Shown here in pieces: positions 9,415 to 30,940 of a DNA stretch of 39,285 nt. The notes beneath the pieces were generated by a model. That model did no database searches. It was not told the DNA's origin and saw nothing but the letters and a program-made list of their open reading frames with translations. The DNA is from Adlercreutzia sp. ZJ141 (GTDB taxonomy: Bacteria > Actinomycetota > Coriobacteriia > Coriobacteriales > Eggerthellaceae): NCBI RefSeq assembly GCF_011038965.1, contig NZ_JAAKEB010000020.1, positions 1 through 39,285 on the forward strand. Reading direction: 5' to 3'. The translations under genes were made by a program, and so were the position numbers. The stretch's first letter is position 1; the number at the start of each line of letters is the position of its first letter.

Positions 9415-9508
9415 CCTATTGTCCCGATTTAGATAACGGTTCAGCTTCCTGTTGTTCCATTACAAATCGGGACAATAGGCTACGTCCCCGTTGTCCCCGT
9501 TGTTCCGC
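9386..9508. repeat. Perfect 45-bp inverted repeat element overlapping the whiA 3' end
   Basis: The left arm 9386-9430 and the right arm 9464-9508 are exact reverse complements over 45 bases, separated by a 33-base loop. Each arm contains two copies of ACAACGGGG(A). The left arm encodes the last eight codons and stop of whiA. The size and perfect symmetry are like REP/MITE-type elements mobilised in trans by Y1 (RAYT) transposases, but no transposase is adjacent. It could also act as a transcription-stop or mRNA-stabilising hairpin for the whiA operon. Confidence 0.85.
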
Positions 9509-14862: not shown

Positions 14863-14932
14863 CGGTCATCGCGTATCAAACAGCGCTATCAGAGGGCCTA
14901 CAAACCTACCTTCAATAACCTAATTATCCGAG

Positions 14933-14972
14933 CGCTTGCGCCGTCTTACCGTGGACGGCGCAAGCGTATTCT
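14933..14972 (+). terminator. Intrinsic terminator closing the glycolytic operon
   Basis: CGCTTGCGCCGTC (14933-14945) and GACGGCGCAAGCG (14954-14966) form a perfect 13-bp stem with an 8-base loop, followed by TATTCTT. It lies about 70 bases after the gpmI stop. Confidence 0.8.
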
Positions 14973-15031
14973 TGTGTGTGAGCCGTATGTCGTAATGCCT
15001 TGAAAAAATGTCGAATTTCATTGACAAACTG

Positions 15032-15059
15032 TTGTTCAAGTGCGACATATCGGTATAAT
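15032..15059 (+). promoter_or_regulatory. Putative promoter of the polysaccharide operon
   Basis: TTGTTC (15032-15037), a 16-base spacer and a perfect TATAAT (15054-15059). A better -35 match, TTGACA at 15021, is too far from this -10 (27 bases). The site is about 320 bases upstream of loaP, leaving a long leader. Confidence 0.55.
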
Positions 15060-15065
15060 ATGGCG

Positions 15066-15244
15066 TCGAAAGTTCTTGAAACAGAGCACACAGATGCATT
15101 TGCACTGCGTGTTCTTGTGCCGCAGGTGTTGTGTTTATACAACAATCAGGCACGGCGACCGTAAGGCCGCAAGGGGTGACTTACCCCACCCCCATACATA
15201 TCTTGAGATGGCGAAATCGTCGCAAAGCGCGTTCCGTCGATCGA
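15066..15244 (+). promoter_or_regulatory. Long untranslated leader upstream of loaP, structure unassigned
   Basis: About 180 bases between the putative promoter and the terminator, with no convincing gene. Local foldable segments include GGGGT/ACCCC around 15173-15187 and GCGA/TCGC near 15211-15223. The arrangement of a long leader followed by a terminator and then a gene is that of an attenuator or riboswitch. I could not match it to a known aptamer class with confidence. Confidence 0.4.
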
Positions 15245-15326
15245 AGAGAGAGTGAATAGCTTCGTTGTGCTTAGGAAAGCAGCCGCCGCATGGGCGGTAG
15301 TGCAGCTATTCACCCTCTCTTTTTTA
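15245..15326 (+). terminator. Strong intrinsic terminator in the loaP leader
   Basis: AGAGAGAGTGAATAGCT (15245-15261) pairs with AGCTATTCACCCTCTCT (15304-15320), 17 bp with one mismatch. The loop contains its own CCGCC/GGCGG hairpin, and a run of T residues follows directly (15320-15325). It stands between the promoter and loaP, so read-through must be controlled for the operon to be expressed. Confidence 0.8.
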
Positions 15327-15381
15327 TTCGACGGACGTTTGACAAGCAAACAGTAGAGCAGCAGAAAAGGAGCAGGCGGGT

Positions 15382-15894
15382 ATGTGGTACGTGGCACAGG
15401 TGCAGGCGGGTCGCGAGACCGCCACGAGAAACCTGTGCAAGCTCATGGTTTCACCGCAAGCCATGGAAGATTGCTTCGTGCCCGAGTACGAAACCATGTG
15501 GAAAGTGCGCGGCGAATGGAGGCTGGTGCACCGTCTGCTGTTTTCAGGATATGTATTCTTCGTAAGCGACGACCCCAAAGAGCTACACAAACAGCTTTTG
15601 CGGGTGCCCATGCCTATCCGCATCTTAGGAAACGAGAAAAACGCATACTTCCCGCTTACCGATAAAGAACGCGACTGGTTTTTGTCGTTCATGGACGGAA
15701 ACCACGTGGTGCGCATGAGCGAAGGGTATATCACCGGCGATAAGGTAACGGTCACGCGCGGCCCGCTGATGGGGTTTGAAGGCAGCATCCGAAAGATCGA
15801 CCGTCACAAGCGTCGCGCATACTTAGACGTAAAGCTGTTCGGCCGCACTGTCCCTGCAAGCGTGGGCCTGGAAATCGTGAGGAAAACCGCATGA
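15382..15894 (+). CDS. loaP: LoaP-type transcription antiterminator (NusG paralogue)
   Basis: 170 residues. The N-terminal NGN domain begins MWYVAQVQAGRET and includes the LFSGYVFF segment typical of specialised NusG proteins; the C-terminal KOW domain is GDKVTVTRGPLMGFEGSIRKID (about 117-138). LoaP proteins in Firmicutes and actinobacteria promote processive antitermination of long polysaccharide and antibiotic operons and recognise an RNA hairpin in the leader. Its place as first gene of a long surface-polysaccharide locus fits that role. An AAAGGAG ribosome-binding site lies upstream, about ten bases before the ATG. The stop overlaps the next small ORF by ATGA. The upstream terminator suggests autoregulation, which is inference. 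Confidence 0.88.
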   Translation: MWYVAQVQAGRETATRNLCKLMVSPQAMEDCFVPEYETMWKVRGEWRLVHRLLFSGYVFFVSDDPKELHKQLLRVPMPIRILGNEKNAYFPLTDKERDWFLSFMDGNHVVRMSEGYITGDKVTVTRGPLMGFEGSIRKIDRHKRRAYLDVKLFGRTVPASVGLEIVRKTA

Positions 15895-16046
15895 GCGAAA
15901 CAACTCGCATGATCCAAGCGCAGCTCGGGGGGGGGGGCATTGAGAGCCAGCAACGCGCGATAGTGGCGGAAGCTATGGGGCGCAGGCTATCTGCGTCCCT
16001 ACTTATGCTCAGGACCAGGCTAAACCCACGAAACTCAGAAGTATGA
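15891..16046 (+). CDS. 51-codon ORF with an 11-G tract, coupled to loaP and the dehydratase gene
   Basis: An ATG that overlaps the loaP stop (ATGA) opens a 51-codon frame ending in TGA at 16044-16046, which itself overlaps the ATG of the next gene (ATGA at 16043). Residues 13-16 are four glycines encoded within an uninterrupted run of 11 G (15927-15937). The rest (IESQQRAIVAEAMGRRLSAS) is a mildly basic amphipathic helix-like stretch with no family I recognise. Double ATGA coupling argues that it is translated. Adding one G stops the frame at the TGA right after the tract; losing one G stops it about ten codons later. See the finding on phase variation. Confidence 0.6.
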   Translation: MSETTRMIQAQLGGGGIESQQRAIVAEAMGRRLSASLLMLRTRLNPRNSEV

Positions 16047-17926
16047 CAAGCAAGCTTACAAAACGAGGATTCTTGCGAGCTTTGCCACTCGTGCTCATAG
16101 ATACAGTGGCTACGTTTGCGGCCTACGCTGTGGCAGCGTGGGGCACACAGGTGGGTGGAGCGCTGGCGCAACCCAGCTCGTTTGGTCACATCGCCTTTTT
16201 CGCCCTGGTAAACGTTGTTGTCTACGCAGCGTGTCGCATGTACAGCTGCCTGTGGGAATATGCCAGCATTGATGAAGCAATGCGGCTCATTTCAGCATCG
16301 TTCTTGTCGTCGCTGGCGGGTAGCATCTTAGGTTATGGCCTGTTGGGAGCACGTCTTCCGCTGCGCGTGTATGTGGTTGCATGGTTGCTCTTCCTGGGCG
16401 TTACGGCGGCGGCGCGTTTTGCGTTGCGTGTGTACTCGGGACGTAAGAGCTGGTCGCTTTTCGGAGCATCATCTGAGGGTATGCCACGTACACTTGTGGT
16501 GGGTGCGGGGGAAAGCGGCTCTATGACGGTAAAGCGCATGCTGTCGTGCGATCAGAGCATCGTGGGCTGTCCAGTTGCACTTGTTGATGACAATCGAATA
16601 AAGCTTGGTACCTACGTGCATGGCGTAAAGGTTATGGGGACGTGTGACGACATTGAAGCACTTTCGAAGCGGCTCGGCGTCGAGCAGATTGTTATAGCGA
16701 TACCCTCCGCAACGCGGGAACAGCGCGACCGGGTTTTGGCGCAGTGCATGAAAACAGAGCTTCGGGTACTCACGCTGCCCGATATTAAGGACATCCCCGC
16801 AGGAGAGCTAGATCAAGCAGTGCTGCGCGAGGTTGAAGTGGCCGATCTGCTTGCCCGTGACGAAGTGGAGCTTAACCTGGGTCAGATGGCTTACGTGGCG
16901 GGCAAGCGTGTGTTGGTAACAGGTGGGGGAGGCTCCATTGGAAGCGAGCTCGTGCGTCAGCTGTTGCCCGCTAAGCCCGTGAAGATTGTTTTGTTTGATA
17001 TTTACGAAAACACCACCTATGAACTACTGCACGAGGTGAAAGGCCAGGCGGCTGATTTAGGTGTGCAAATTGCGGTGGAAATAGGGTCAATCACCCACAT
17101 GCCTGCGCTTCAAAAGTGCTTTGCCGACCACAAGCCACAAGTGGTGTTTCATGCGGCGGCACACAAGCACGTGCCGCTTATGGAGGCGAACCCGCGCGAA
17201 GCCATAGAAAACAACGTGTTTGGCACACTGAACCTTGTACGCATCGCACACGAGCAAGGCTGCACGCATTTCATCCTGATATCAACCGACAAGGCGGTGA
17301 ACCCTGTAAACGTTATGGGTGCTACCAAGCGCATGTGCGAAATGATTGTGCAGTGTTACGCGAGTATGAGTGACACGGTGTTTGCCGCCGTGCGTTTTGG
17401 CAACGTATTAGGTAGCCACGGTAGCGTGATACCGCTGTTCAAGCGCCAGTTGCGCGATGGTGGGCCTATTACGGTTACGCACAAGGACATTACCCGCTAC
17501 TTCATGACCATCCCCGAGGCAAGTCGATTGGTTATAGCGGCTGGTGCGCTGGCTCGTGGGGGAGAGATATTCATCCTAGACATGGGTGAACCTGTGCGCA
17601 TTTGGGATTTAGCGGAGAACCTGGTAAGGCTTTCGGGGCTTAAACCCGGCCGCGATATTCAGATTGTCGAGACAGGCTTGCGCCCCGGCGAGAAGATGTT
17701 CGAAGAGCTGCTGATGGATGAAGACGAGCCGCTGCCTACCGACAACCCAGGCATAACTGTAAGCCGTGCATCAGCACCTGAGGTCGATGACGTGCGTGCG
17801 CGCATCGAATTACTCGAAGGTAGCCTGAACGGTACGAACAACGCCATCAAGCGTGTGCTCGCCGAAGCAGTGCCGACCTACCAGCCCGAATTGCATGACG
17901 GGAAGACGGATACACATGCTGCGTAG
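16043..17926 (+). CDS. Membrane-bound UDP-GlcNAc 4,6-dehydratase (CapD/WbpM/PglF family)
   Basis: 627 residues. Four N-terminal hydrophobic segments (about 12-130) are followed by a nucleotide-binding-like domain (about 140-270) and a short-chain dehydrogenase domain with TGGGGSIGSELV (about 293-304). The catalytic region STDKAVNPVNVMGATK (about 414-429) has Met where classical SDRs have Tyr, as usual for this family. It converts UDP-GlcNAc to UDP-2-acetamido-2,6-dideoxy-4-keto-hexose at the inner membrane face. The next gene, a DegT aminotransferase, would act on the 4-keto product. Its ATG overlaps the stop of the 51-codon ORF and has only a weak ribosome-binding site of its own, so coupled translation is likely. 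Confidence 0.9.
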   Translation: MTSKLTKRGFLRALPLVLIDTVATFAAYAVAAWGTQVGGALAQPSSFGHIAFFALVNVVVYAACRMYSCLWEYASIDEAMRLISASFLSSLAGSILGYGLLGARLPLRVYVVAWLLFLGVTAAARFALRVYSGRKSWSLFGASSEGMPRTLVVGAGESGSMTVKRMLSCDQSIVGCPVALVDDNRIKLGTYVHGVKVMGTCDDIEALSKRLGVEQIVIAIPSATREQRDRVLAQCMKTELRVLTLPDIKDIPAGELDQAVLREVEVADLLARDEVELNLGQMAYVAGKRVLVTGGGGSIGSELVRQLLPAKPVKIVLFDIYENTTYELLHEVKGQAADLGVQIAVEIGSITHMPALQKCFADHKPQVVFHAAAHKHVPLMEANPREAIENNVFGTLNLVRIAHEQGCTHFILISTDKAVNPVNVMGATKRMCEMIVQCYASMSDTVFAAVRFGNVLGSHGSVIPLFKRQLRDGGPITVTHKDITRYFMTIPEASRLVIAAGALARGGEIFILDMGEPVRIWDLAENLVRLSGLKPGRDIQIVETGLRPGEKMFEELLMDEDEPLPTDNPGITVSRASAPEVDDVRARIELLEGSLNGTNNAIKRVLAEAVPTYQPELHDGKTDTHAA

Positions 17927-19160
17927 ACTTGAGGGCATTGTGCCTTTCGAGCAGAAGGTGTGGCTGAGTTCACCCACCATGCACGGTGATGAGCTGCGCT
18001 ACATCACCGAGGCATACGAGACAAACTGGATGTCAACGGTTGGCGAGAACATCAACGAAGTTGAGCGTCTCATCTGCGAAAAGGTTGGCTGCAAGCACGC
18101 TGTGGCTCTTTCGAGTGGCACGGCCGCACTACACCTAGCAGTGAAACTCGCCGGTGTGAAGCCGGGGGATAAGGTTCTCTGCAGTGATATGACCTTCGAT
18201 GCCACAGTGAACCCCGTAGTATACGAAGGCGGCGTGCCCGTATTTGTGGATACCGAGCGCGACACTTGGAACATGGACCCAGTTGCTCTTGAGCGCGCAT
18301 TCGAGTCGCACCCCGAAGCAAAGGCTGTGGTAGTGGCGCATCTCTACGGTGTATCCGGCAAGATAGACGAGATAGTGGCGGTGGCGAAGGCTCACGGTGC
18401 TGTGGTTGTTGAAGATGCTGCCGAGTCGCTCGGTGCCACCTACAAGGGCAAGCAGACCGGTACCTTCGGAGATATCAACTGCATCAGCTTCAACGGAAAC
18501 AAGATCATAACCGGCTCGTCTGGTGGCATGTTGCTTACTGACAAAAAGGAAGCAGCCGACAAGGTTCGCAAGTGGTCAACTCAGGCACGAGAAGCCGCTC
18601 CCTGGTACCAGCATGAAGAACTGGGCTACAACTATCGCATGAGCAATGTGATAGCCGGCGTAGTTCGCGGGCAGATACCCTACCTCGAAGAGCACATTGC
18701 TCAGAAAAAGGCTATCTACGAGCGCTACAAGGAAGGTCTCAAGAATCTTCCTGTTTCTATGAATCCTTACGACTCTGAGAATTCCGAACCGAACTTCTGG
18801 CTCTCCTGCCTGCTAATCGATGAAAACGCTATGTGCCGACAGGTGCGCGGTGAGCGGGATGTCCTGTATGTGAGTGAGCCTGGCAAGAGCTGCCCTCATG
18901 AGATTCTAGACGCACTGGCTGCAATCAACGCAGAAGGCCGCCCCATCTGGAAGCCCATGCACATGCAACCGATCTATCGTAGCAACTCGTTCGTAACCCG
19001 CAACGGCGACGGAAGGGCACGTACGAATGCCTACATCGAAGGTGAAACACTCGACGTAGGAATGGACATCTTCCAGCGTGGCGTGTGTTTACCCTCCGAT
19101 AACAAGATGACTCCAGAACAGCAGGAAGCGATCATTGAGGTCATCAAGAGGTGCTTTTAG
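17916..19160 (+). CDS. DegT/DnrJ/EryC1/StrS-family sugar aminotransferase
   Basis: 414 residues from the ATG at 17916. This is a PLP enzyme of the family that aminates 4-keto nucleotide sugars (PglE, PseC, ArnB type). Visible are LSSGTAALHLAVKLAGVKPG (PLP phosphate site), VVEDAAESLGATYKG, and the Schiff-base lysine in SFNGNKIITGSSGG (about Lys 196). It overlaps the end of the dehydratase gene by 11 bases. Together the pair would make a UDP-4-amino-4,6-dideoxy-GlcNAc. An alternative start 21 codons upstream lies deep within the dehydratase gene and is less likely. Confidence 0.9.
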   Translation: MLRRLEGIVPFEQKVWLSSPTMHGDELRYITEAYETNWMSTVGENINEVERLICEKVGCKHAVALSSGTAALHLAVKLAGVKPGDKVLCSDMTFDATVNPVVYEGGVPVFVDTERDTWNMDPVALERAFESHPEAKAVVVAHLYGVSGKIDEIVAVAKAHGAVVVEDAAESLGATYKGKQTGTFGDINCISFNGNKIITGSSGGMLLTDKKEAADKVRKWSTQAREAAPWYQHEELGYNYRMSNVIAGVVRGQIPYLEEHIAQKKAIYERYKEGLKNLPVSMNPYDSENSEPNFWLSCLLIDENAMCRQVRGERDVLYVSEPGKSCPHEILDALAAINAEGRPIWKPMHMQPIYRSNSFVTRNGDGRARTNAYIEGETLDVGMDIFQRGVCLPSDNKMTPEQQEAIIEVIKRCF

Positions 19161-19167
19161 TAGATGA

Positions 19168-19776
19168 GTGCTGATGCGGATCGTTAATCTGCTGATAAAA
19201 GGAATCTTCGATGTGGTTTTCAGCGCGTGTCTTTCTATTGTCTTGCTGCCTTGGTGGGTACTCATTGCTGTATTGATAAAACTTACCATGCCGGGACCGG
19301 TGTTCTTTAAACAAGTTCGTGCTGGAAAAAATGGCGAGGAGTTCGAGATACTGAAATTCAGAACGATGAGAGTTGACGTTGAGGCAGAGAAGGCCTTTGA
19401 CGTCTCGAAAGACACTGATCGGCTCACTGTTCTGGGAAGTGTTTTGCGACGATTGAAGCTCGACGAGACACCTCAGCTACTGAACGTCCTGAAGCGCGAT
19501 ATGTCTTGCGTGGGACCGCGTCCTACTTTCAAAAGCCAGGTAGAAGAGTATGACGACTTCCAGAGACGCCGACTCGAGATGCTTCCTGGTATGACCGGTC
19601 TTGCTCAGACGAACGGCAACGTCAGCTTGACCTGGGATGATAGGATTCTCTACGACGTCTACTATATAGATCATTTCTCGATTCTTCTTGATCTTAAGAT
19701 CCTTATGAAGACGGTCTTCATTGTCTTGTTCGGTGAGGATAGGTTCAGGCGACTTCCAATGAACGTTGAGAGATAG
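19168..19776 (+). CDS. Initiating sugar phosphotransferase (PglC/WcaJ C-terminal type)
   Basis: 202 residues, the small monotopic form. One N-terminal reentrant hydrophobic segment (about 8-38, ending in PGPVFFKQVRAGKNG) is followed by FEILKFRTM and the catalytic Asp-Glu pair in LKLDETPQLLNVLKRDMS (about 97-114) and by GPRPTF. These phosphoglycosyl transferases move a sugar-1-phosphate from UDP onto undecaprenyl phosphate, starting the repeat unit. By neighbourhood the substrate is the product of the two preceding genes. The start is a GTG at 19168; an ATG at 19174 is an equally possible start. Confidence 0.9.
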   Translation: MLMRIVNLLIKGIFDVVFSACLSIVLLPWWVLIAVLIKLTMPGPVFFKQVRAGKNGEEFEILKFRTMRVDVEAEKAFDVSKDTDRLTVLGSVLRRLKLDETPQLLNVLKRDMSCVGPRPTFKSQVEEYDDFQRRRLEMLPGMTGLAQTNGNVSLTWDDRILYDVYYIDHFSILLDLKILMKTVFIVLFGEDRFRRLPMNVER

Positions 19777-19806
19777 CCATTGAACGACCCAAGGGGTGTT
19801 TACTCG

Positions 19807-20706
19807 GTGAAAGTAGTGGTGATAGGCGCAGTTGTCTCAACGAAGGTTGTTGTCGAGCGGCTTATGCGCGCGAACGTGGAGATCGCGATGGTCTTTTGTT
19901 TGGATGAAGCGATCAGTGAGAACGTGTCCGGCTACTGTCCCCTGCATGAGTTGGCGGAAGCGAACGGAATTCCCTACAAGAAGTTCCGAAAGATCAACGA
20001 TGATGAGAACGTTCGGATCATGGAGGAAATCAAGCCCGATTACATCTTTGCGGTCGGCTTCTCTCAGATCGTCGGCTCGAGAATCATTAACGCCGCTAAG
20101 GGGGGTGCCATAGGTTTTCACCCGACGCCATTGCCGAAGTTCAGAGGACGTGCTGCGATGGTGTGGCAAGTGCTCCTCGGTGTTCGCGAAACTGCTTGCA
20201 CGATGTTCTTCCTTGATGAGGGAATGGACTCTGGGGATATAATCGCGCAGGAGTCTTACGAGATTGGTGAAGACGACTACGCAGAGGACGTTGGAAATAA
20301 GCTGCTTGAGGCCATGGTTCCACTTACGGATCGCGTTATCGAGAAGTTATCCCATACGCCTGTAGACGTCGTGAAACAAGACGAGTCGCAGGCGAGCTAC
20401 CTACTGAAGAGGACGCCCGAAGACGGGCTCATCGACTGGTCCCGGCCTGTTTGCGAAATCCATCGCCTCGTTAGGGGGGTCTCCCATCCTTATCCGGGCG
20501 CGTTCGGCATGTATGACGGTGTTCATAAGGTGACCATCTGGCGTGCTGACGCCAGGGAGAACAGCAAGTATATAGGAATTCCTGGCCAGATAGCCTACGT
20601 GGATCAAACTGGCTTTGGGGTTGTATGCGTGGACGGATTGCTGCACATCACCGACTTCGAGAGCGAAGATAACGTGCGTTTGCTTGTAGGACATAAACTG
20701 AAATGA
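19807..20706 (+). CDS. Sugar N-formyltransferase (methionyl-tRNA formyltransferase fold)
   Basis: 299 residues from a GTG with AAGGGG at 19791-19796. A TTG at 19780 would add nine residues. The formyltransferase N-terminal domain has GFHPTPLPKFRGRA (His near residue 105) and FFLDEGMDSGDI (Asp near 141), which bind N10-formyltetrahydrofolate and catalyse transfer. The C-terminal part (RTPEDGLIDWSR, about 203-214) matches the FMT C-terminal domain. In the usual Asn-x-His-Asp catalytic set the Asn position is Gly here. The genome context (after a 4-aminotransferase) indicates formylation of a 4-amino sugar nucleotide rather than initiator tRNA. Confidence 0.82.
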   Translation: MKVVVIGAVVSTKVVVERLMRANVEIAMVFCLDEAISENVSGYCPLHELAEANGIPYKKFRKINDDENVRIMEEIKPDYIFAVGFSQIVGSRIINAAKGGAIGFHPTPLPKFRGRAAMVWQVLLGVRETACTMFFLDEGMDSGDIIAQESYEIGEDDYAEDVGNKLLEAMVPLTDRVIEKLSHTPVDVVKQDESQASYLLKRTPEDGLIDWSRPVCEIHRLVRGVSHPYPGAFGMYDGVHKVTIWRADARENSKYIGIPGQIAYVDQTGFGVVCVDGLLHITDFESEDNVRLLVGHKLK

Positions 20707-21386
20707 CAGTTGGTGGACAAATGAACGTGCTCGTATTCGCACCTCACCCTGATGACGAGGTTCTTGGCTGTGGGGGAACCATTGCTAGATTAGCTCATGA
20801 GGGATGCAGTGTTTACGTTTGCGTAGTGACAAAGGGTGTGGAGCCCCTCTTTTCCGAGAAAGGTGTTAGTAGAATAAGGAACGAGCAAGCTGCGGCCCAT
20901 GAGATCCTCGGCGTTACTGACGTCTTCTACCTCGACTTTCCCGCAGCGATGCTCGAAGAGTCTCATCGCTATGAGCTAAACGGGAGCGTTTCCTGGGTGT
21001 TGGATACAGTGCGACCTGAATTGGTTTTTATCCCGCATTTTGGAGACATGCAGCGAGACCATGGTTTGGTTAGCGAGGCGGTCATGGTTGCTGTCAGGCC
21101 GCGTGGTGACTACTCTGTCAGAAAGATCCTGTCCTATGAGACTCTGAGTGAGACGGAATGGAACATTCCTCATTCCTCAACGTCCTTCATGCCGAATTGC
21201 TTTATCGACATCAGTTCGTACAAGGATTTGAAGCTGCATGCCCTAGCAAAGTTTGAGTCTCAGGTAGCACCGTTTCCATGTCCTCGATCCATCGAAGCTG
21301 TCGAGGCTCTCGCAAAGCTGAGAGGCTCTACTATTAATGTTCAAGCGGCTGAGGCGTTTTCGGTGATTCGTGAAATTGTGCGTTAA
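20703..21386 (+). CDS. PIG-L (LmbE-like) family deacetylase
   Basis: 227 residues. The family signature APHPDDEVLGCGGT (His15, Asp17, Asp18 from the first Met) binds the catalytic zinc together with a later His in HFGDMQRDHG. These enzymes remove N-acetyl groups from GlcNAc-type sugars or related small molecules. ATGA overlap with the formyltransferase gene gives the first start; an internal Met seven residues in (20721) may be the real one. The substrate in this locus is unknown; a glycan or nucleotide-sugar N-acetyl group is the reasonable guess. Confidence 0.85.
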   Translation: MTVGGQMNVLVFAPHPDDEVLGCGGTIARLAHEGCSVYVCVVTKGVEPLFSEKGVSRIRNEQAAAHEILGVTDVFYLDFPAAMLEESHRYELNGSVSWVLDTVRPELVFIPHFGDMQRDHGLVSEAVMVAVRPRGDYSVRKILSYETLSETEWNIPHSSTSFMPNCFIDISSYKDLKLHALAKFESQVAPFPCPRSIEAVEALAKLRGSTINVQAAEAFSVIREIVR

Positions 21387-21437
21387 ATCTAGAAAACCGA
21401 ACATGGTATATGCGTATTTTGGGACGAGGCGCTGCTT

Positions 21438-22640
21438 GTGAACGTCTTGTTTATGAGTGTGGCTGGAATAGGGAACTTAGACGGCCAAAGTATATATGGG
21501 GATCTCCTCAAGACGTTCAGGTTACATCAGCATCAAGTGTATGTAGTGAACCCAGTTGAAAGGCGATCTGGTAAGAATACTGAATCCCTTATTTCTCATG
21601 GGGTTCGAATTCTTGATGTTCGCACCGGAAACCTGCAGAAGTGTGGCTTAGTGGAGAAGGGGATCTCGCAACTGAGGCTTGAGAGACAGTTCCTGTCAGC
21701 GATAAAAAAACACTTTGCAGGGATTCATTTCGACCTCATCTTATACCCGACGCCACCCACCACGTTGGGTGGATTGATAGGGAAGCTTAAGGCAAAGCAC
21801 GATGCTATGACGTATCTTCTGCTCAAGGATATCTTCCCACAGAACTCCCTTGATCTGGGCATGTTGTCCAAGGATGGGGTTAAGGGCCTGATCTATCGAT
21901 ACTTCAAGCGCACTGAGCGGAAGACCTATGAGGTATCCGACTTCATCGGCTGTATGTCCGAGGCAAACCGTCGCTATCTCGTTAAGTATGAGTCTTGGCT
22001 TGATCCTGATAAGGTTGAGGTCAACCCGAATAGCCTGATTCCTCGGGATATGCCCGACGTTGACAGGGTTGCCTTGCGTGCGAGGTTTGGTATCCCCACC
22101 GATACTCGTCTCTTCACGTACGGTGGCAACCTCGGAAAACCGCAGGCTATCGACTTCCTCATTCGGGTATTGAAACTCAATGAGGTGCGTGGCAACGTTT
22201 ATTTCGCTATTGCGGGTGACGGAACCGAACGGCATTACCTTGAGGATTACTTTGATAAGGAGAAGCCGAAGAGCGCAAAGCTGTTTCCCTACCTGTCAAG
22301 AGAGGAATTTGACTCTCTTTTGCAGGCTTCTGACTGCGGCATCATCCTGCTCGATCATCGCTTCACTATTCCCAATTTTCCTTCTCGTAGTTTGTCGTAT
22401 TTGCAGGCAGAGATTCCCTACATTGCTGCGACTGATGAGGTGAGCGACATAGGAACGCTGGCTGAAGCTGAGGGGTTCGGCGTGAAGGTAGACAGCGTTG
22501 ATGAAGCCAAGTTCCTCAAGGCATGTGAAACCCTCTCTTTTCGGGAGTTAAGGCAAATGGGGGAAAAGGGTCGTCGGTACTTCGAGGAAAACTACACGGC
22601 AGAACGTTCATACGAGAAGATCATGGAGCACGTTAAATGA
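21438..22640 (+). CDS. Glycosyltransferase family 4
   Basis: 400 residues from a GTG. It has a GT-B fold pattern: an N-terminal domain beginning MNVLFMSVAGIGN; a C-terminal nucleotide-sugar domain with FTYGGNLGKPQAIDFLI, FAIAGDGTERHYLEDYF and LFPYLSREEFDSLLQASDCGIILLD; and PSRSLSYLQAEIPYIA in place of the usual 'P.K..EY.A.G.P' motif. Its stop overlaps the start of fnlA. Because WbuB-type transferases for L-FucNAc sit beside fnlABC in enterobacterial loci, transfer of L-FucNAc is a plausible but unproven role. Confidence 0.85.
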   Translation: MNVLFMSVAGIGNLDGQSIYGDLLKTFRLHQHQVYVVNPVERRSGKNTESLISHGVRILDVRTGNLQKCGLVEKGISQLRLERQFLSAIKKHFAGIHFDLILYPTPPTTLGGLIGKLKAKHDAMTYLLLKDIFPQNSLDLGMLSKDGVKGLIYRYFKRTERKTYEVSDFIGCMSEANRRYLVKYESWLDPDKVEVNPNSLIPRDMPDVDRVALRARFGIPTDTRLFTYGGNLGKPQAIDFLIRVLKLNEVRGNVYFAIAGDGTERHYLEDYFDKEKPKSAKLFPYLSREEFDSLLQASDCGIILLDHRFTIPNFPSRSLSYLQAEIPYIAATDEVSDIGTLAEAEGFGVKVDSVDEAKFLKACETLSFRELRQMGEKGRRYFEENYTAERSYEKIMEHVK

Positions 22641-23698
22641 TTGACTCTAAAACATTCAACGAAAAGACTCTCATGATCACTGGTGGAACCGGCTCGTTCG
22701 GCTCCACGGTACTGAAGCACTTCCTCAACTCTGATGTGGGCGAGATACGCATCTTCTCCCGTGATGAGAAGAAGCAAGACGACATGCGCCACAGGTTGCA
22801 GCGGGTAAGTCCTGATGCAGCTCGCAAAGTGCGTTTTCTCATCGGGGACGTGCGCGACTCACAAAGTGTTCGGGACGCCATGCGAGGTGTGGACTACGTG
22901 TTTCATGCGGCAGCACTCAAGCAGGTGCCATCCTGTGAGTTCTTCCCCATGGAAGCCGTACGTACAAACGTTATTGGTACTGACAATGTGCTTCATGCAG
23001 CTATTGCTGAAGGGATTAAGCGCGTGGTGTGTTTGTCCACCGACAAAGCGGCATACCCCATTAATGCTATGGGTAAGTCTAAGGCTATGATGGAGTCAAT
23101 CATTTACGCCAACGCGAGAAACGGGGCTGCAGCAGGAACCACCATCTGCTGCACGCGTTATGGCAACGTCATGTGTTCGAGGGGAAGTGTAATCCCGCTC
23201 TTCATCGATCGTATTCGTAAGGGTCTGCCACTTACGATAACCGACCCCAACATGACACGTTTTCTCATGAACTTAGATGAGGCGGTCGATCTTGTCTGTT
23301 TCGCTTTTGAGCATGCAAACCCAGGAGACCTTTTCATCCAAAAAGCTCCGGCTTCCACTATCGCCGACCTTGCCGAGGCGGTGCAAGAGGTGTTCGGACA
23401 CACTGGTACCCAAGTTATCGGAACTCGTCATGGTGAGAAGCTCTTTGAGACACTTATGACCTGCGAAGAGAGACTTCGCGCTGAGGATATGGGCAACTAC
23501 TACCGAGTACACGCTGACACACGCGATCTTAACTACGACAAGTTCGTAGTGGATGGTGACGTAAAGACAATGGCGACAGAAGCATACACCTCACACAACA
23601 CTACCCGATTGGATGTTGCTGGTACTGTCGCAAAGATCAAAACCGCCGAGTATATCCAGCTTGCTTTGCAAGGTCGAGAGTACGAGGCGGTGCAGTAG
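22637..23698 (+). CDS. fnlA: UDP-GlcNAc 4,6-dehydratase/5-epimerase (FnlA/CapE/WbjB)
   Basis: 353 residues, a soluble SDR with TGGTGSFGSTV (about 15-25). The catalytic STDKAAYPINAMGKSKAMMES (about 135-155) again has Met in the Tyr position. This family performs the first step from UDP-GlcNAc to UDP-N-acetyl-L-fucosamine. The two following genes encode the remaining two steps in order, which makes the assignment firm. ATGA overlap links it to the upstream glycosyltransferase. Confidence 0.92.
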   Translation: MIDSKTFNEKTLMITGGTGSFGSTVLKHFLNSDVGEIRIFSRDEKKQDDMRHRLQRVSPDAARKVRFLIGDVRDSQSVRDAMRGVDYVFHAAALKQVPSCEFFPMEAVRTNVIGTDNVLHAAIAEGIKRVVCLSTDKAAYPINAMGKSKAMMESIIYANARNGAAAGTTICCTRYGNVMCSRGSVIPLFIDRIRKGLPLTITDPNMTRFLMNLDEAVDLVCFAFEHANPGDLFIQKAPASTIADLAEAVQEVFGHTGTQVIGTRHGEKLFETLMTCEERLRAEDMGNYYRVHADTRDLNYDKFVVDGDVKTMATEAYTSHNTTRLDVAGTVAKIKTAEYIQLALQGREYEAVQ

Positions 23699-23699
23699 C

Positions 23700-24896
23700 G
23701 TGAAAGTTCTCGTTACCGGAGCCAAGGGCATGGTGGGAACTGCGCTTTGCCGTACGCTTAAGAACTTGCGAGATGGCAAAGATCGTACTCGACCGAACCT
23801 CAAAATCGACGAGGTATTCGAGTACGACTTGAACTCAACTCCTGAAGAACTCAGGGCTTACTGTAAGGCATGTGACTTCGTATTCAACCTTGCTGGCGTG
23901 AACCGCCCGAAGGATCCTATCGAGTTCATGGCGGGCAACTTCGGGTTTGCAAGCGATCTTCTGAACGAGCTTAAGGCTGCCGGAAACACCTACCCAGTCA
24001 TGTTGGCATCATCTGTCCAGGCAACACTTGCCGGTCGGTTCGAAGGGAGCGAGTACGGCCGTTCCAAACGAGCCGGTGAAGAGCTCTTCCTTACCTACGG
24101 TAAGGAAACCGGTGCCAAGGTTGCGATCTATCGCTTCCCGAACCTCATGGGGCATTCCCGCCCCAATTACAACTCGGCTGTGTCAACCTTTTGCTGGGCT
24201 ATAGCAAACGATGAACCCTTCGAGGTGAGCGATCCGAATGTAGAGCTTGAGCTTCTCTACATTGACGATCTCATTAAGGGCATGCTTGACCTTCTGGAAG
24301 GTAAGGAACAACGTTGTGAGTACGATGGGGTAGAGGTGGCGCCGACCGATGAAGGCCGCTACTGTTACGTGCCGATCACCCATAAGGTGACCTTGGGGCG
24401 TATCGTGGAACTCCTTCAAGTGTATAAAACTCAGTCCGAAACGCTTCTGATGCCGAAGATGCCGGAATGCTCTTTCGAGAAAAAGCTCTACTCACTCTAT
24501 CTTACGTACCTACCCGCAGAGAGGTTCAAGTACCCGCTCAAAATGAACGTCGACAATCGCGGAAGCTTTACCGAGTTGATTCATACCCGAGATTGCGGCC
24601 AGGTATCTGTCAACATATCTAAGCCTGGCGTCACCAAAGGCCAACACTGGCACAGCTCTAAGTGGGAGCTCTTTATTGTGGTTAAGGGTCATGGACTCAT
24701 CCAAGAACGCAATATCAACACTGGTGAAACAGCTGAGTTCGAAGTATCGGGCGACAAGATTGAAGCTGTATACATGGTTCCCGGCTGGACTCACAACATA
24801 ACCAACCTCTCTGACACTGAGGATCTGATTACGGTAATGACTTGCAACGAGGTTTTCGATCCGGAGCATCCCGACACATACTACGAGGAGGTGTAA
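23700..24896 (+). CDS. fnlB: Bifunctional SDR-cupin reductase/epimerase (FnlB/CapF/WbjC)
   Basis: 398 residues from the GTG at 23700, one base after the fnlA stop. The N-terminal SDR domain starts MKVLVTGAKGMVGTAL, and a C-terminal cupin (about 280-395) contains GVTKGQHWHSSKWELFIVVKG with the metal-binding His pair and VPGWTHNITNLSD. The cupin epimerises and the SDR reduces the 4-keto intermediate to UDP-N-acetyl-L-talosamine in CapF-type enzymes. A longer in-frame ORF begins inside fnlA, but the GTG places the Rossmann motif correctly at the N-terminus. Confidence 0.92.
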   Translation: MKVLVTGAKGMVGTALCRTLKNLRDGKDRTRPNLKIDEVFEYDLNSTPEELRAYCKACDFVFNLAGVNRPKDPIEFMAGNFGFASDLLNELKAAGNTYPVMLASSVQATLAGRFEGSEYGRSKRAGEELFLTYGKETGAKVAIYRFPNLMGHSRPNYNSAVSTFCWAIANDEPFEVSDPNVELELLYIDDLIKGMLDLLEGKEQRCEYDGVEVAPTDEGRYCYVPITHKVTLGRIVELLQVYKTQSETLLMPKMPECSFEKKLYSLYLTYLPAERFKYPLKMNVDNRGSFTELIHTRDCGQVSVNISKPGVTKGQHWHSSKWELFIVVKGHGLIQERNINTGETAEFEVSGDKIEAVYMVPGWTHNITNLSDTEDLITVMTCNEVFDPEHPDTYYEEV

Positions 24897-24900
24897 ACCC

Positions 24901-26064
24901 GTGGCGTCCTTCAAGAATGACGGCAGGCTGAAACTCCTCATCATCGTGGGCACCCGCCCCGAGATCATCCGACTGTCCGAGCTCATCAAGAAGTGTCGCA
25001 GGTACTTTGATACCCTGCTTGCTCATACAGGACAAAACTACGACTACAACCTCAATGGTGTGTTCTTCCATGACCTGGAGCTTGACGACCCTGATGTGTA
25101 TCTGGATGCCGTGGGCACCGACCTCGGCGAGACTATGGGCAACATCATTGCGAAGAGTTATCAGCTCATGACCGAGATCAAGCCTGATGCGGTGCTGGTG
25201 CTTGGTGACACCAACTCGTGTCTATCGGTCATCGGTGCCAAGAGGTTGCATATCCCTATCTTTCACATGGAGGCAGGCAATCGCTGCAAGGATGAATGTT
25301 TGCCGGAAGAGACGAACCGAAGAATTGTCGACGTCATATCGGATGTAAACCTTGCATACTCAGAACACGCCAGGCGCTACCTCAAGGACGCCGGCTGTGC
25401 TCCTGAGCATACCTATGTGACAGGAAGCCCCATGGCTGAGGTGCTGAGCAAGAATCTCAGTAAGATCAACTCAAGCAACATTCATACAGAGCTCGGACTC
25501 GAGAAAGGTCACTACATCCTACTTAGTGCCCACCGGGAAGAAAACATCGACACTGAGACAAACTTCGAGAGCCTGTTCTCTGCCGTAAACGCCATGGCTG
25601 CCAAGTATGATATGCCTGTCCTCTACAGCTGCCATCCGCGAAGCCGCAAGCGCCTGGCAGCTTCCGGTTTCAAACTTGACCCCCGCGTGCGCATGCATGA
25701 ACCACTGGGTTTCCATGACTATAACTGCCTGCAGGCAAACGCCTTCTGTGTCGTTTCCGACTCAGGGACGCTGCCCGAAGAGTCTTCTTTCTTCGCGAGT
25801 GTCGGCCAGTCTTTCCCAGCGGTATGTATAAGAACGAGCACCGAGCGCCCTGAAGCGCTTGACAAGGCATGCTTTATTCTCTCGGGAATCGATGAACGGG
25901 GCCTGCTGCAAGCGGTGGATCTAGCTGTAGCCATGGAGACCGACGACCACCATGGTATCCCGGTCCCTGACTATACCGACAAAAACGTCTCCGACAAGGT
26001 GGTCAAGATCATCCAGTCCTACACGGGCGTGGTGAACAAGATGGTGTGGAGGAAGGTTCTTTGA
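24901..26064 (+). CDS. fnlC: UDP-GlcNAc 2-epimerase-like enzyme (FnlC/CapG/WbjD)
   Basis: 387 residues from a GTG with AGGAGG at 24886-24891. The epimerase_2 fold signature is clear: LLIIVGTRPEIIRLSELI (about 13-30), HTGQNYDYN, VLGDTNSCLS, HMEAGNR (about 124-130), LPEETNRRIVD and LSAHREENID. As the last of the fnlABC set it performs 2-epimerisation to UDP-N-acetyl-L-fucosamine. Confidence 0.93.
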   Translation: MASFKNDGRLKLLIIVGTRPEIIRLSELIKKCRRYFDTLLAHTGQNYDYNLNGVFFHDLELDDPDVYLDAVGTDLGETMGNIIAKSYQLMTEIKPDAVLVLGDTNSCLSVIGAKRLHIPIFHMEAGNRCKDECLPEETNRRIVDVISDVNLAYSEHARRYLKDAGCAPEHTYVTGSPMAEVLSKNLSKINSSNIHTELGLEKGHYILLSAHREENIDTETNFESLFSAVNAMAAKYDMPVLYSCHPRSRKRLAASGFKLDPRVRMHEPLGFHDYNCLQANAFCVVSDSGTLPEESSFFASVGQSFPAVCIRTSTERPEALDKACFILSGIDERGLLQAVDLAVAMETDDHHGIPVPDYTDKNVSDKVVKIIQSYTGVVNKMVWRKVL

Positions 26065-26112
26065 AGTGGCAATGATGTTGGGCATTGAAGACTGCAATGA
26101 TTGGGAAAAATG

Positions 26113-27261
26113 ATGAGTGAAGAACGAGAATACCAAGTTTGTAAGAAATGCGTCATGGATACGACCGACGAAGATATTTCATTCAACGTCAATGGTGTAT
26201 GTAATCGCTGCATCGAGTATGAAACCCGAATTTTGCCCGAGTGGAACTACGGAAAGGGCCATGAAGAAGAACTAAGCGGGCTATTGAACGAGATCAAATC
26301 AAAAGGCGCGAGCAAACCTTATGATTGCATCCTTGGGCTAAGCGGTGGCCTGGACAGTACTTATATGCTCCATCTTGCGGTTAGAGAATGGGGGCTTCGA
26401 CCGTTCGTGTTCCATATCGATGCGGGATGGAACCTCCCTGTTGCCGAGGAGAACGTCAAAAGAGTAACCGATAAACTAGGCGTAGATCTTCATGTCGAGA
26501 AGATGAACTGGGATGAGATGCGGGAAATGCAATTGGCTTGGTTTCGCACTGGAATGGAGAACCTCGATTCTCCCCAGGATCACGCGTTTATTGCCCTTAT
26601 TGACAGGTATTCTCGAGAGCTTGGGGTCAAATACATACTCAACGGCTACAACATCTGCACCGAAGTCGTTGCCGACCCGGCCTCCTGGGGAAAAGACGGA
26701 GGTCCTACGGGGGATAGTACCTACATGAAGGATGTGATCAGAAAGCACTGTACTATACCCATAAAAGAGTACACGTTTACCAATGGTTTCAAGCACAAAG
26801 TTGTTCTTCCTTATATATACGGCGTGAAAACGATCAAGCCGTTGAACCTCGTTCACTTCACAAAAAGGCAGATGGTGGAAACCCTTCAAACCGAATACGG
26901 ATATGTTCCTTACGGGCAGAAGCATTTTGAGGATTTAATTACGAAGTTTCTTGAGGGTTGGTGGGTTCCCACGCGTTTTGGGCACGATATTCGCAGGGCG
27001 CAGCTGTCGAGCTTGGTTATGACGGGACAAATGAGCAGAGATGAAGCTTTGCGTATTTTGGAGAAGTCTCCCCTGACGGACGAAGAGGCGAAAGAGCTGT
27101 TCTCCGAGGTTGCAAAACGACTTGAAATAAGCGAAGACGAGCTGATGGAATACCACGAGATGCCAAAGTGCTCGGAGCGTTTCCGAAGCCAGAAGGCGCT
27201 TTACAATACCGGAATTAAGCTGTTCGAGGCTCTCGGCATCGAAAAGCGAATTAGGAAATAG
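26113..27261 (+). CDS. N-acetyl sugar amidotransferase (WbpG/LegG-like)
   Basis: 382 residues. N-terminal Cys pairs (CKKCVMDTT, CNRC) are followed by an ATP-pyrophosphatase loop LGLSGGLDSTYML (about 74-86) and conserved downstream segments FHIDAGWNLPVAEENV and NGYNICTEVV. This family replaces an N-acetyl oxygen with ammonia-derived nitrogen to form an acetamidino group on a nucleotide sugar. Known members work with HisH- and HisF-like partners that supply ammonia; none is present in this window. Starts at 26101 (TTG) or 26110 are also in frame. Confidence 0.85.
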   Translation: MSEEREYQVCKKCVMDTTDEDISFNVNGVCNRCIEYETRILPEWNYGKGHEEELSGLLNEIKSKGASKPYDCILGLSGGLDSTYMLHLAVREWGLRPFVFHIDAGWNLPVAEENVKRVTDKLGVDLHVEKMNWDEMREMQLAWFRTGMENLDSPQDHAFIALIDRYSRELGVKYILNGYNICTEVVADPASWGKDGGPTGDSTYMKDVIRKHCTIPIKEYTFTNGFKHKVVLPYIYGVKTIKPLNLVHFTKRQMVETLQTEYGYVPYGQKHFEDLITKFLEGWWVPTRFGHDIRRAQLSSLVMTGQMSRDEALRILEKSPLTDEEAKELFSEVAKRLEISEDELMEYHEMPKCSERFRSQKALYNTGIKLFEALGIEKRIRK

Positions 27262-27328
27262 GGTTCGAAAAAAAGCGGCCTTTTCCGGGCAGAACAGCCG
27301 AAGTGGAGCTTCTTAAGAGGGTACATGA

Positions 27329-28489
27329 ATGAGCGGATACGTTCAGATTCACAGTGACTCCTACAGCTGGTTCAAGCCGATAGTTTACGATCGTCACTTG
27401 TCGTTGCTGGCTGATGGTGTGGATTCTTATGTAGCTTGGGGACGAGGACGCGAGTCGGGTGATGAGTTCGGCGCAAGCGGACAACCTCGTGAGTTTAAGA
27501 TATCAACCAAGGTGGGGCTCTGGCGAGATGCAGCGCTCTCGCGCCTTGATGATCGAGATGGTTTCCACTCAAAAGGCGAGACAAAACGGCTTTTGGAGTG
27601 GCTTGACGCGATTAATCCTGACACCGTGCATTTGCATCAACTGCACGGTTACTACATGAACGTAGAGATGCTGTTTAACTGGTTGGCGGCGCAATCATGC
27701 AATGTCATCTGGACATTACATGATTGTTGGGCTTTTACGGGTCACTGCACGTATTTCACCATGGTTAAGTGTGAGCAGTGGCGCTCCTGTTGTGCATGCG
27801 AAAGATCTTGCCCTCAGTTGAGGGAATATCCCAAGGCATTTGGACGAGGTGCGTGCAAGAGAAACTTCGAGGATAAGAAGAGACTCTTCACGATGATCTC
27901 TCCTGAGCGAATGACGATATATACACCTTCGCGGTGGCTCGCGGATCTCGTAGGAGCGAGCTTTCTATCAAAGTATCCTGTAGAAGTGCATCACAATCAG
28001 ATTGATCATACCGTATTCAAGCCTACTCCGAGCGACTTTCGTGAACGATACGGTATAGACGACCGATTTATGATTCTCGGTGTGGCGAATCCCTGGACCG
28101 AACGAAAGGGTCTTGATGACTTTCTTCAATTGGCAGCAGAGCTGGACGAGCGGTACGCTGTTGTACTGGTGGGTCTTTCCAAAAAGCAAATTAAGGAACT
28201 ACCAAAGTGTATCGTAGGCATCAAGTGCACTGACAGTCCGACGGAACTTGCTGAGGCGTACACCGCTGCTAACTTGTTTATAAACCCGAGCATTGAGGAA
28301 ACCTACAGCATGACAACTGCCGAGGCAGCTGCTTGTGGCACGCCTGTAGCTGTTGTTGAGGGCACAGCGTGTGTTGAAGCTGCTGAAGACGCCAAAAAAT
28401 ACGTTATACACTTAGGTGATTTGAAGTCTGTCGTAACGCAAAGCTATCAAGATACGATATGCACTCAGTGTGTCTCAAAACAAAAGTGA
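27329..28489 (+). CDS. Glycosyltransferase family 4
   Basis: 386 residues; AAGAGGG sits just upstream of the ATG. The N-terminal part has DTVHLHQLHGYYMN and WTLHDCWAFTGHCTYF, followed by a Cys cluster (CEQWRSCCACERSCPQL, about 148-164) found in WcaL/WcaC-like transferases. The C-terminal nucleotide-sugar domain has ILGVANPWTERKGLDDFL and INPSIEETYSMTTAEAAACGTPV (E-x7-E motif). The C-terminus after CGTPVAVVEGTA is rather short. The acceptor and donor are not predictable from sequence. Confidence 0.85.
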   Translation: MSGYVQIHSDSYSWFKPIVYDRHLSLLADGVDSYVAWGRGRESGDEFGASGQPREFKISTKVGLWRDAALSRLDDRDGFHSKGETKRLLEWLDAINPDTVHLHQLHGYYMNVEMLFNWLAAQSCNVIWTLHDCWAFTGHCTYFTMVKCEQWRSCCACERSCPQLREYPKAFGRGACKRNFEDKKRLFTMISPERMTIYTPSRWLADLVGASFLSKYPVEVHHNQIDHTVFKPTPSDFRERYGIDDRFMILGVANPWTERKGLDDFLQLAAELDERYAVVLVGLSKKQIKELPKCIVGIKCTDSPTELAEAYTAANLFINPSIEETYSMTTAEAAACGTPVAVVEGTACVEAAEDAKKYVIHLGDLKSVVTQSYQDTICTQCVSKQK

Positions 28490-29600
28490 GAATACGTTGG
28501 GTTCAGTTGTAAAAATGTATAGCTTGGCGTATGGGTTATTCTTTATGGGGATAGCTTTGCTGTATTGTAATAGTCTTATTGCGTATACGAACGTGAGCGT
28601 TGCGTATAAGGATCCTGCTAGGATTGTATCAGCTCTTTTTCTGGTAGCGTCTTCTCTGTTGAATTTCAATCGTCTTAGAATGCCAGTTCCTGTTGTGCTT
28701 ATCGCTATTCTCTCATTTATCTCTGTTTTGCTTCATGGGCTTGTGGCATTGAATTTTCTTCTTATTGTTTTGTTTGTCTTGAGTTCTAGCGCTTTTGAAA
28801 AGCATCTGGTAATTAGGGCAATTGCTTATACTACGGTAATATCTATCGTTCTGTATGGTGTGCTCTATATGCTTGGGCTAATACAGTGGAATTATACTTT
28901 TTGGGATGGCCGCCTGAGAAACACTCTTGGCTTTTATAATGAGAATGTGGCTGCAACTTTCTTTTCGGCAATGCTTGTGTTGCCTTATACATTTAGGCGT
29001 CGAAGAATCTTATGGATGATCGCATTGATGCCACCTTACTTCATTGTCTATTTGCTGACGGATTCCAGAAGTACCATTGTGATTGGATTTATAATGCTGC
29101 TCGCTTGCGCTCTATTCTATATACTTGAAAAACAAGGTAGAAGAAAAACGAGCGCCATAATAACAAGTCTAGTACTGTATGGTACTTTAGTAATCTCCTT
29201 TTTGTTGCCATATGTTGGGACGAGTTCACTTGACCTGATTTTGAGTTATAGACTCACTGTTTTTCGGCAAGCAATCAATGCTTTGTTTGGAACTCCTTTT
29301 GCTTTTTGGATTGGCTTGCCTATTGAAATAGATAACTGTTATATTACGCTTCTAGCAAATTACGGCATTCTACTCTTCTTGCTTCTCTTTTACTGCATCC
29401 AGAAGGCAATAGTAGTCTATTCGAAGGGTGGAGGATGGATGGAGCTCGCTCTTATCTTAACCATGTTGGTTTACAGCATGGTTGAAGGTAATCTATTTCG
29501 TCCAGAGGTAATGTTAACTCTTGCATTTTGGTATTTTGTCCTTGGGTGTAATGGCGAATCTGGATATTCAGAAATTAGCATGGATTCAATCAAAAGCTAA
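28470..29600 (+). CDS. wzy: Wzy-type oligosaccharide repeat-unit polymerase
   Basis: 376 residues, almost entirely hydrophobic, with about ten membrane helices and a large middle loop (about 140-165: LGLIQWNYTFWDGRLRNTLGFYNEN). The pattern of an O-antigen polymerase is supported by its place between glycosyltransferases and a flippase. The gene is markedly richer in A and T than its neighbours, as is typical of wzy. The GTG at 28470 overlaps the upstream gene; an ATG at 28515 (MYSLAYGLFF) is a plausible alternative start. No good ribosome-binding site is visible for either. Confidence 0.75.
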   Translation: MSQNKSENTLGSVVKMYSLAYGLFFMGIALLYCNSLIAYTNVSVAYKDPARIVSALFLVASSLLNFNRLRMPVPVVLIAILSFISVLLHGLVALNFLLIVLFVLSSSAFEKHLVIRAIAYTTVISIVLYGVLYMLGLIQWNYTFWDGRLRNTLGFYNENVAATFFSAMLVLPYTFRRRRILWMIALMPPYFIVYLLTDSRSTIVIGFIMLLACALFYILEKQGRRKTSAIITSLVLYGTLVISFLLPYVGTSSLDLILSYRLTVFRQAINALFGTPFAFWIGLPIEIDNCYITLLANYGILLFLLLFYCIQKAIVVYSKGGGWMELALILTMLVYSMVEGNLFRPEVMLTLAFWYFVLGCNGESGYSEISMDSIKS

Positions 29601-29644
29601 GCTTGTCCTGCGATGATGGATAAAATAATCCAATCCGATAGTAT

Positions 29645-30913
29645 TTGAGGTTGCGAAATTACAAACATATAACTTTCTACAGAAACACCGCATGGCAGTA
29701 CGGCCTACAGGTTGTTAAGTATCTCTTCCCGTTGATTACTCTGCCGTATCTCACGCGTGTGTTGGAACCGGACGGGTATGCAGTCTATGCTTACGTTCTA
29801 TCGCTAATGACATTTGCTCAGGTGTTTATCGATTTTGGGTTCAACCTATCGGGCACTAAGCAGATAGCTGCAGCTGTATCTGTCAAGGATGAGAACTATA
29901 CGATCGGCGCTATAACGCAGGCGCGACTCGTTCTGTGTGTAGTATCAGGTCTCGTTGTTTGCGCAGTGGCCAGTCTCATTCCGATTACGGCCACAAACCT
30001 AGACTATACCATGCTCGCATTCGCTGCGGTGTGTGGGAGGGCGATGGCTCCTGACTTCGTATTCCAGGGACATGAGGACATGAGGCCAATTACCGTGCGC
30101 TACTTCGTATCCAAGGGTATCTCCACCGCTCTCACTTTTGTGTTTGTTAAGTCAGTTGCTGACCTCATGTGGATCCCCGTGTTGGACATCCTTGCAAGTG
30201 CGATCGCTCTCGCTTGGTCATTCGCGACTTCAAAGAGGCTCTTTGGGACGGTGATTATGTGGGTCACGATGCGCCGGGTTCTCTCCGAGCTGCGCGACTC
30301 GGCACTCTATTGCTTCTCGAACATGGCAGCATCAGTGTTTTCTGGTTTCACAACCTTACTGATTGGCGTGGTTGTGCCAGACGCTGCGCAGATATCGTAC
30401 TGGTCTCTTGCTATGACCGCAGTGTCCGCTGTACAGTCCCTCTACTCTCCGATAGTTGACAGCATGTACCCCCACATGGTTAGGTCCTGCGACTTCGGTT
30501 TCGTCATGAAGACGGCTCTTGTCGCTCTACCCACAATTCTGGCCGGGACAGTCTTTTTTGTGGATCTACGTGACATCATTGTGCTTGTCCTGGGTGGTGA
30601 GGCGTACCTCGAGGGCACGTGGATTCTAGTCGCGGTGTCACCTGTGCTCCTTTTTTCTTTCTTTGCGATGCTGTTCGGTTGGCCTGTGCTGGGTGCGGCG
30701 GGCAGAGTGCGGGAGGTGACCTCTACTACAGTGGGATCAGGCATATTCTGTATTACAGCTCTACTGGTTGTTTCCTTTCTAGGCATGGCGACTATGCCCA
30801 TCATCTGTGGTATACGAGTGATAACTGAAGTTGTTCTATGTCTGAGTAGGGTGTGGTTTTGTAGAACTCTGGTTTTTAAAAGTGGCGCAAGGCTTCGTCA
30901 TCGGTCTAGATGA
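29645..30913 (+). CDS. wzx: Wzx-type polysaccharide flippase
   Basis: 422 residues of the MOP/RfbX superfamily with about 12 membrane segments. The N-terminus (RNTAWQYGLQVVKYLFPLITLPYLTRVL) is characteristic of O-antigen and teichuronic-acid exporters. It would flip the undecaprenyl-linked repeat unit for Wzy polymerisation. The start is a TTG with no strong ribosome-binding site; alternative starts further in would delete the conserved first helix. Confidence 0.88.
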   Translation: MRLRNYKHITFYRNTAWQYGLQVVKYLFPLITLPYLTRVLEPDGYAVYAYVLSLMTFAQVFIDFGFNLSGTKQIAAAVSVKDENYTIGAITQARLVLCVVSGLVVCAVASLIPITATNLDYTMLAFAAVCGRAMAPDFVFQGHEDMRPITVRYFVSKGISTALTFVFVKSVADLMWIPVLDILASAIALAWSFATSKRLFGTVIMWVTMRRVLSELRDSALYCFSNMAASVFSGFTTLLIGVVVPDAAQISYWSLAMTAVSAVQSLYSPIVDSMYPHMVRSCDFGFVMKTALVALPTILAGTVFFVDLRDIIVLVLGGEAYLEGTWILVAVSPVLLFSFFAMLFGWPVLGAAGRVREVTSTTVGSGIFCITALLVVSFLGMATMPIICGIRVITEVVLCLSRVWFCRTLVFKSGARLRHRSR

Positions 30914-30940
30914 CGTGGAACGATATCAGATGAGTGGGGT

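Follow-up and report, generated by a model that had tools for sequence, protein, structure and literature searches.

How does transcription reach loaP, which heads a capsule operon in Adlercreutzia sp. ZJ141, when a strong hairpin abutting a run of T's stands between its candidate promoter and its coding sequence? LoaP proteins are widespread, and the only LoaP RNA target that we found in the literature is the dfn/mln hairpin of Bacillus. There, LoaP binds to a hairpin in the leader and blocks NusA-enhanced termination (PMC12691694). We addressed the question in the contig NZ_JAAKEB010000020.1 (39,285 nt; hereafter, the window), in which a capsule operon of roughly 18 kb follows loaP (Table 1). 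The first-pass annotation had named the gene loaP, and profile searches bear this out: the encoded protein exceeds the cut-off of 125 bits for the LoaP model and has NGN and KOW domains that are both above cut-off, and it fits LoaP (169 bits) far better than UpxY (NF033644, 51.1 bits against a cut-off of 100), placing it in the former family and outside the latter. The genome (2.29 Mb in 57 contigs) holds two loaP genes led by the RNA element described below, each heading a set of polysaccharide genes. It contains 11 NusG-like genes, including four tandem pairs without the element (C53, C13, C14, and C7), and AAAAGTGTACTTTT-like sequences lie upstream of several NusG-like genes.

Table 1. Features of the loaP leader and the operon that follows it, in window coordinates
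Feature	Position	Strand	Basis or remark
-10-like TATAAT (candidate promoter)	15054..15059	+	Sequence; weak -35 TTGTTC at 15032-15037
Operator-like dyad, TGTTG-N8-CAACA	15127..15144	.	Sole such dyad in the window
64-nt structured RNA element, P1 enclosing P2	15196..15259	+	Covariance model, 68.7 bits; covariation; fold
Intrinsic terminator (attenuator)	15243..15325	+	5' arm includes the 3' strand of P1
loaP, NusG paralogue (NGN + KOW)	15382..15894	+	NF033641, 169.1 bits; PF02357, PF00467
11-G tract, possible slippage site	15927..15937	+	Just 3' of loaP
Capsule or surface polysaccharide operon	16043..33393	+	Sugar dehydratase, aminotransferase, sugar transferase, flippase-type PF01943, LicD, others

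The first-pass annotation had described a consensus -10 box, a leader of roughly 180 nt, and a 17-bp terminator with a T run, and all three hold. The -10 box is a perfect TATAAT hexamer, and a start near 15066 would give a leader of about 177 nt before the terminator stem. The promoter itself is only plausible, because it has no good -35 box and the hexamer is not listed in a promoter scan of the window. The -35 candidate matches the consensus at 3 of 6 positions with a 16-nt spacer, and a TTGACA at 15021-15026 lies too far from the hexamer to serve. The TATAAT region could not be aligned in relatives, leader DNA matches mostly starting at query position 156. Further downstream, the dyad has counterparts in six close relatives, where it likewise precedes the element (with N6 in L057), and in some relatives a divergent gene with an HTH_3 domain (Pfam) stands beside it, a gene absent from that spot in the window. 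The dyad is probably the site of an Xre/Cro-type regulator. A one-to-one Xre partner within the genome was sought and rejected, the best homologue being 43% identical with no such dyad nearby. On the upstream side, a 15-bp hairpin with a poor T run (14932-14967) lies 3' of a phosphoglycerate mutase gene, and transcription of the glycolytic genes may continue past it into the loaP leader. Elsewhere in the window, at 9386-9508, two 45-bp arms form a perfect inverted repeat around a spacer of 33 nt; it draws a spurious Rfam microRNA match on each strand and resembles the hairpin of a repeat element.

The terminator consists of 18 pairs and one A.C mismatch (15243-15250/15315-15322 and 15252-15261/15304-15313, within a stem of 15243-15261/15304-15322), a structured apical loop, and six T's (15320-15325) that abut the stem. 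Its hairpin is the strongest before a T run in the whole window, at -38.3 kcal/mol compared to -26.9 kcal/mol for the next best, a gap of more than 11 kcal/mol. The region from 15230 to 15330 folds at -40.3 kcal/mol, which was equaled by none of 200 shuffled sequences. A simple terminator scan missed the hairpin because it allows loops of only 3 to 8 nt. Among nine sequences of the window's clade (the window and eight close relatives), 125 of 126 pairs in the arms are kept, and the loop diverges in both length and sequence; at pairs 1 and 7 of the window's terminator, both sides have changed, from A-U to G-C, in compensatory fashion. This pattern supports selection on the terminator, and expression of loaP should therefore need read-through, as had been proposed.

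A conserved part of the leader begins upstream of the terminator and runs into it. Matches between the leader DNA and 138 family genomes fall chiefly on query positions 156 to 220 (15195-15259 in the window), a block that is 89 to 92% identical in the best matches and precedes loaP in other genera. Recognizable versions also occur in the leaders of distant loaP genes (about 40% protein identity). The first-pass annotation had passed over this element. It is built of an outer stem, P1 (15197-15199/15252-15254 and 15201-15204/15246-15249), and an inner stem, P2 (15210-15223 with 15227-15238), with two bulged U's and an AAA triloop (15224-15226) in the window; P2 loops vary over the family, with UUCG in a few copies (L121 and L023). 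One locus (L121, 470-1014) carries two copies 482 nt apart before a single loaP, both with UUCG loops and each with downstream sequence complementary to the 3' strand of P1, without a T run.

Covariation among copies supports an RNA structure. RNAalifold found none in a mixed MAFFT alignment (A1) because the outer stems were misaligned, and a cleaner subset (A2) with a hand-set structure was used in its place. With this two-stem structure, 91% of cells are paired in 17 copies, against 34 to 61% when one strand is slid; over 71 distinct copies, the corresponding values are 91.0% and at most 56%. Both sides have changed at 14 of the 19 pairs in the larger set, in which double-change cells number 148, compared to 54 in shuffles. 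The minimum-energy fold of the element alone recovers P1, a short extension of P1, and P2, and in the window, where P1 is short, the element alone is no stabler than shuffled sequence (z = 0.02). Searches of the window and 29 related loci against Rfam 15, EAR and riboswitches included, gave no relevant match, permissive thresholds adding only chance matches; the folded RNA is missing from this library of families.

The covariance search in related genomes that the first-pass annotation had called for ties this element to loaP. A covariance model (R1) built from 17 copies, all from loaP leaders, was run on whole genomes and returned 49 matches in 137 family genomes, which are related copies and not independent events, though the model was free to match anywhere in the sampled genomes; 48 of them lie 26 to 571 nt upstream of a loaP gene on the same strand. 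Across the class, sampled with 396 genomes, matches occurred in four families, and each of the 34 that were fetched from outside the window's family is likewise followed by loaP on its own strand; in a phylum sample of 396 genomes, every match fell inside the window's order. A refined model added nine weaker matches in the class: four were fetched and all precede loaP, four lie between tandem loaP genes by their coordinates, and the ninth, at a contig end (G302), was left out of the neighbor check. Altogether, about 90 places are listed in the class. Those checked all precede loaP, save a single one at the head of a capsule operon, and at none of them does the element lead a transporter gene or an unrelated biosynthesis gene. 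This association cannot be treated as wholly independent of descent, because the model derives from loaP leaders and the element is inherited with loaP. Conversely, no element match accompanies 16 of the 60 best family matches to LoaP or 8 of the 10 loaP-like genes in the window's own genome, indicating that not every LoaP needs the element. The orphan copy (G125:C1:2370801, L120) has no loaP and stands before a sugar transferase gene (PF02397, 222 bits) followed by glycosyltransferase- and dehydratase-like genes. It differs at few positions from the copy before the loaP of the same genome, a pattern expected of a second LoaP target acted upon in trans.

The position of the element relative to the terminator suggests how the leader might work. 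The 3' strand of P1 (15246-15254) lies within the 5' arm of the terminator (15243-15261), such that P1 and the terminator exclude each other, and a fold of 15196-15325 retains P2 and replaces P1 with the terminator. As modeled, this overlap is the geometry of an attenuator. Coupling to a terminator is seen only in the window's clade, and this terminator is absent from most other leaders that bear the element, suggesting a loading element of general occurrence to which the window's lineage has added the attenuator. We consider it reasonably likely that the RNA at 15196-15259 is a leader element dedicated to LoaP, a loading site of the nut or dfn kind, which in the window's lineage is coupled to the terminator and through which LoaP promotes read-through into its own operon.

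Under this scheme, RNA polymerase coming from the upstream promoter would first make the P1/P2 element, and LoaP would bind it and join the elongation complex. With LoaP bound, P1 may stay closed and hold part of the 5' arm of the terminator, and the polymerase would pass 15320-15325 and go on to transcribe loaP and the capsule operon. When LoaP does not bind, the terminator would form, P1 would open, and transcription would mostly stop before loaP. Leaky read-through would be the source of the first LoaP, which would make the circuit positively autoregulated; loaP probably helps to switch on its own operon. That LoaP acts on its own leader had been one of two suggestions in the first-pass annotation, and the occurrence of the conserved RNA almost only before loaP favors it; LoaP as the ligand, the read-through, and the feedback are what we infer. 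In an alignment with 8f5g, the window's LoaP has W-K where 8f5g has E-R, which we take to correspond to the RNA-contact residues E40/R41 of Bacillus LoaP. Recognition of RNA must therefore differ in detail from that by Bacillus LoaP, and since most copies of the element also have no UNCG loop, a different RNA specificity is expected.

A second motif bears on whether the RNA fold is what matters. In 44 of 76 distinct leaders, none of them in the window's clade, a hairpin with an invariant GCGAAG[C/T] tip, (T)GGCGAAGCC, lies 20 to 50 nt after the element (mode, 27 to 32), where the window's clade has the terminator. The motif was noted in a set comprising L043, L051, L122, and about 70 other loaP leaders, and it may give LoaP a second point of contact or act as a pause hairpin. 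At a similar offset, in the terminator loop, the window has GGCGGTAG (15290-15297), which we take to match the enterobacterial ops sequence; as a working ops site it was set aside, not being kept in the window's close relatives. The conserved sequence might act chiefly by making the polymerase pause and by way of the non-template strand of the DNA, recruiting LoaP in the manner of ops, or by binding another elongation factor, with the RNA fold secondary. The precedent is RfaH, a NusG paralogue of surface polysaccharide operons whose recruitment goes through a leader element, the ops DNA hairpin (PMC7819879), and the invariant tip and the window's ops-like sequence also speak for this reading. 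However, ops is a hairpin in non-template DNA with a pause site, whereas compensatory changes in both P1 and P2 point to pairing in RNA, and with the tip missing from the window's clade and GGCGGTAG missing from its close relatives, we view this explanation as unlikely.

The other suggestion of the first-pass annotation, a ligand-sensing RNA, fares less well. A small molecule, such as a sugar nucleotide, would stabilize P1/P2 and prevent the terminator, LoaP being only the regulated gene. A riboswitch would suit the compact and strongly conserved fold, in which some unpaired nucleotides are invariant, and the competition of the outer stem with the terminator, as in a classical aptamer with its expression platform, but in leaders from outside the window's clade the stretch from the element to loaP usually holds no such platform. 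Because the element heads no unrelated genes, a metabolite riboswitch is less supported, and the copy before a capsule operon is evidence against one specific to loaP; a ligand-sensing riboswitch is quite improbable. Least probable is that the terminator attenuates constitutively or marks the end of an operon, LoaP feedback playing no part and control lying with the Xre-type operator or with transcripts reading through from the glycolytic genes upstream, which would accommodate the dyad and the divergent regulator gene of some relatives but leaves unexplained both the conservation of a 64-nt RNA with covariation across four families of the order and its overlap with the terminator arm.

The preferred reading, a LoaP loading element, has counterparts in known systems. 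As in dfn/mln of Bacillus velezensis, a NusG paralogue of the LoaP family accompanies a structured leader RNA, an intrinsic terminator downstream of it, and a long biosynthetic operon (PMC12691694). The dfn element is described as a small hairpin of the UNCG type that precedes antibiotic operons; that of the window is a two-stem RNA of 64 nt with two bulges and a non-UNCG loop, stands before loaP itself, and shares a strand of P1 with the terminator. In Bacteroides, the NusG paralogue UpxY is likewise encoded first in a capsule operon and prevents termination in the leader upstream of upxY (PMC7819879). The window's arrangement combines the two designs, having a LoaP, as in Bacillus, with an RNA element and a terminator before its own gene. 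EAR RNA, found in Bacillales capsule and biofilm operons and cited in PMC12691694, is also a leader or operon RNA that promotes antitermination in polysaccharide operons, but the window's element is without any Rfam match.

Sequences just behind loaP vary in ways that could affect the operon. The first-pass annotation had argued that positive feedback together with the G tract would render the operon bistable. The tract of 11 G's is real and has counterparts of 10 to 12 G's in most close relatives, in which its length decides a frame of 263 to 282 amino acids, one length in three opening it. In the window, at each length tested (10, 11, and 12), the ATG at 15891 stays separate from the next long frame, and the bistable operon is therefore unsupported there on these grounds; bistability as such is possible. 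In Eggerthella and relatives, inversion junctions adjoin loaP and affect phage sensitivity. The study of Eggerthella lenta capsule inversions next to loaP (PMC13174815), whose text does not contain the word "leader," describes no leader RNA. The gene layout at these capsule inversions is the same as in the window, and the published 16-bp inversion repeat, GATAAGCGCGGTTATG, is situated in L051, L164, and L165 (position ~2250 in loaP orientation), about 100 nt past the stop codon of a loaP that the element leads. It can be read in L051 and L164 in a frame starting ATG TCT GAT AAG CGC. The repeat was rejected as the conserved block of the leader, being downstream of loaP. The window has no GATAAGCGCGGTTATG repeat and carries its G tract at a similar place. 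A variable site just after loaP in both cases is consistent with a cassette of promoter, element, and loaP that acts on whatever follows.

More tentatively, and with rather less than an even chance of being correct, this RNA family, previously undescribed and found over the window's order, could be a general LoaP loading signal, with loaP and its capsule operon forming a portable, self-activating cassette. Self-limiting termination in the window's clade, and G-tract slippage or DNA inversion behind loaP that chooses among capsule genes, might then generate heritable on and off states of the capsule. The element, present in dozens of loaP leaders of gut bacteria, provides a testable LoaP target site and predicts the operons under each LoaP, including one in trans, and it suggests a molecular basis for how Eggerthella and its relatives switch capsules.
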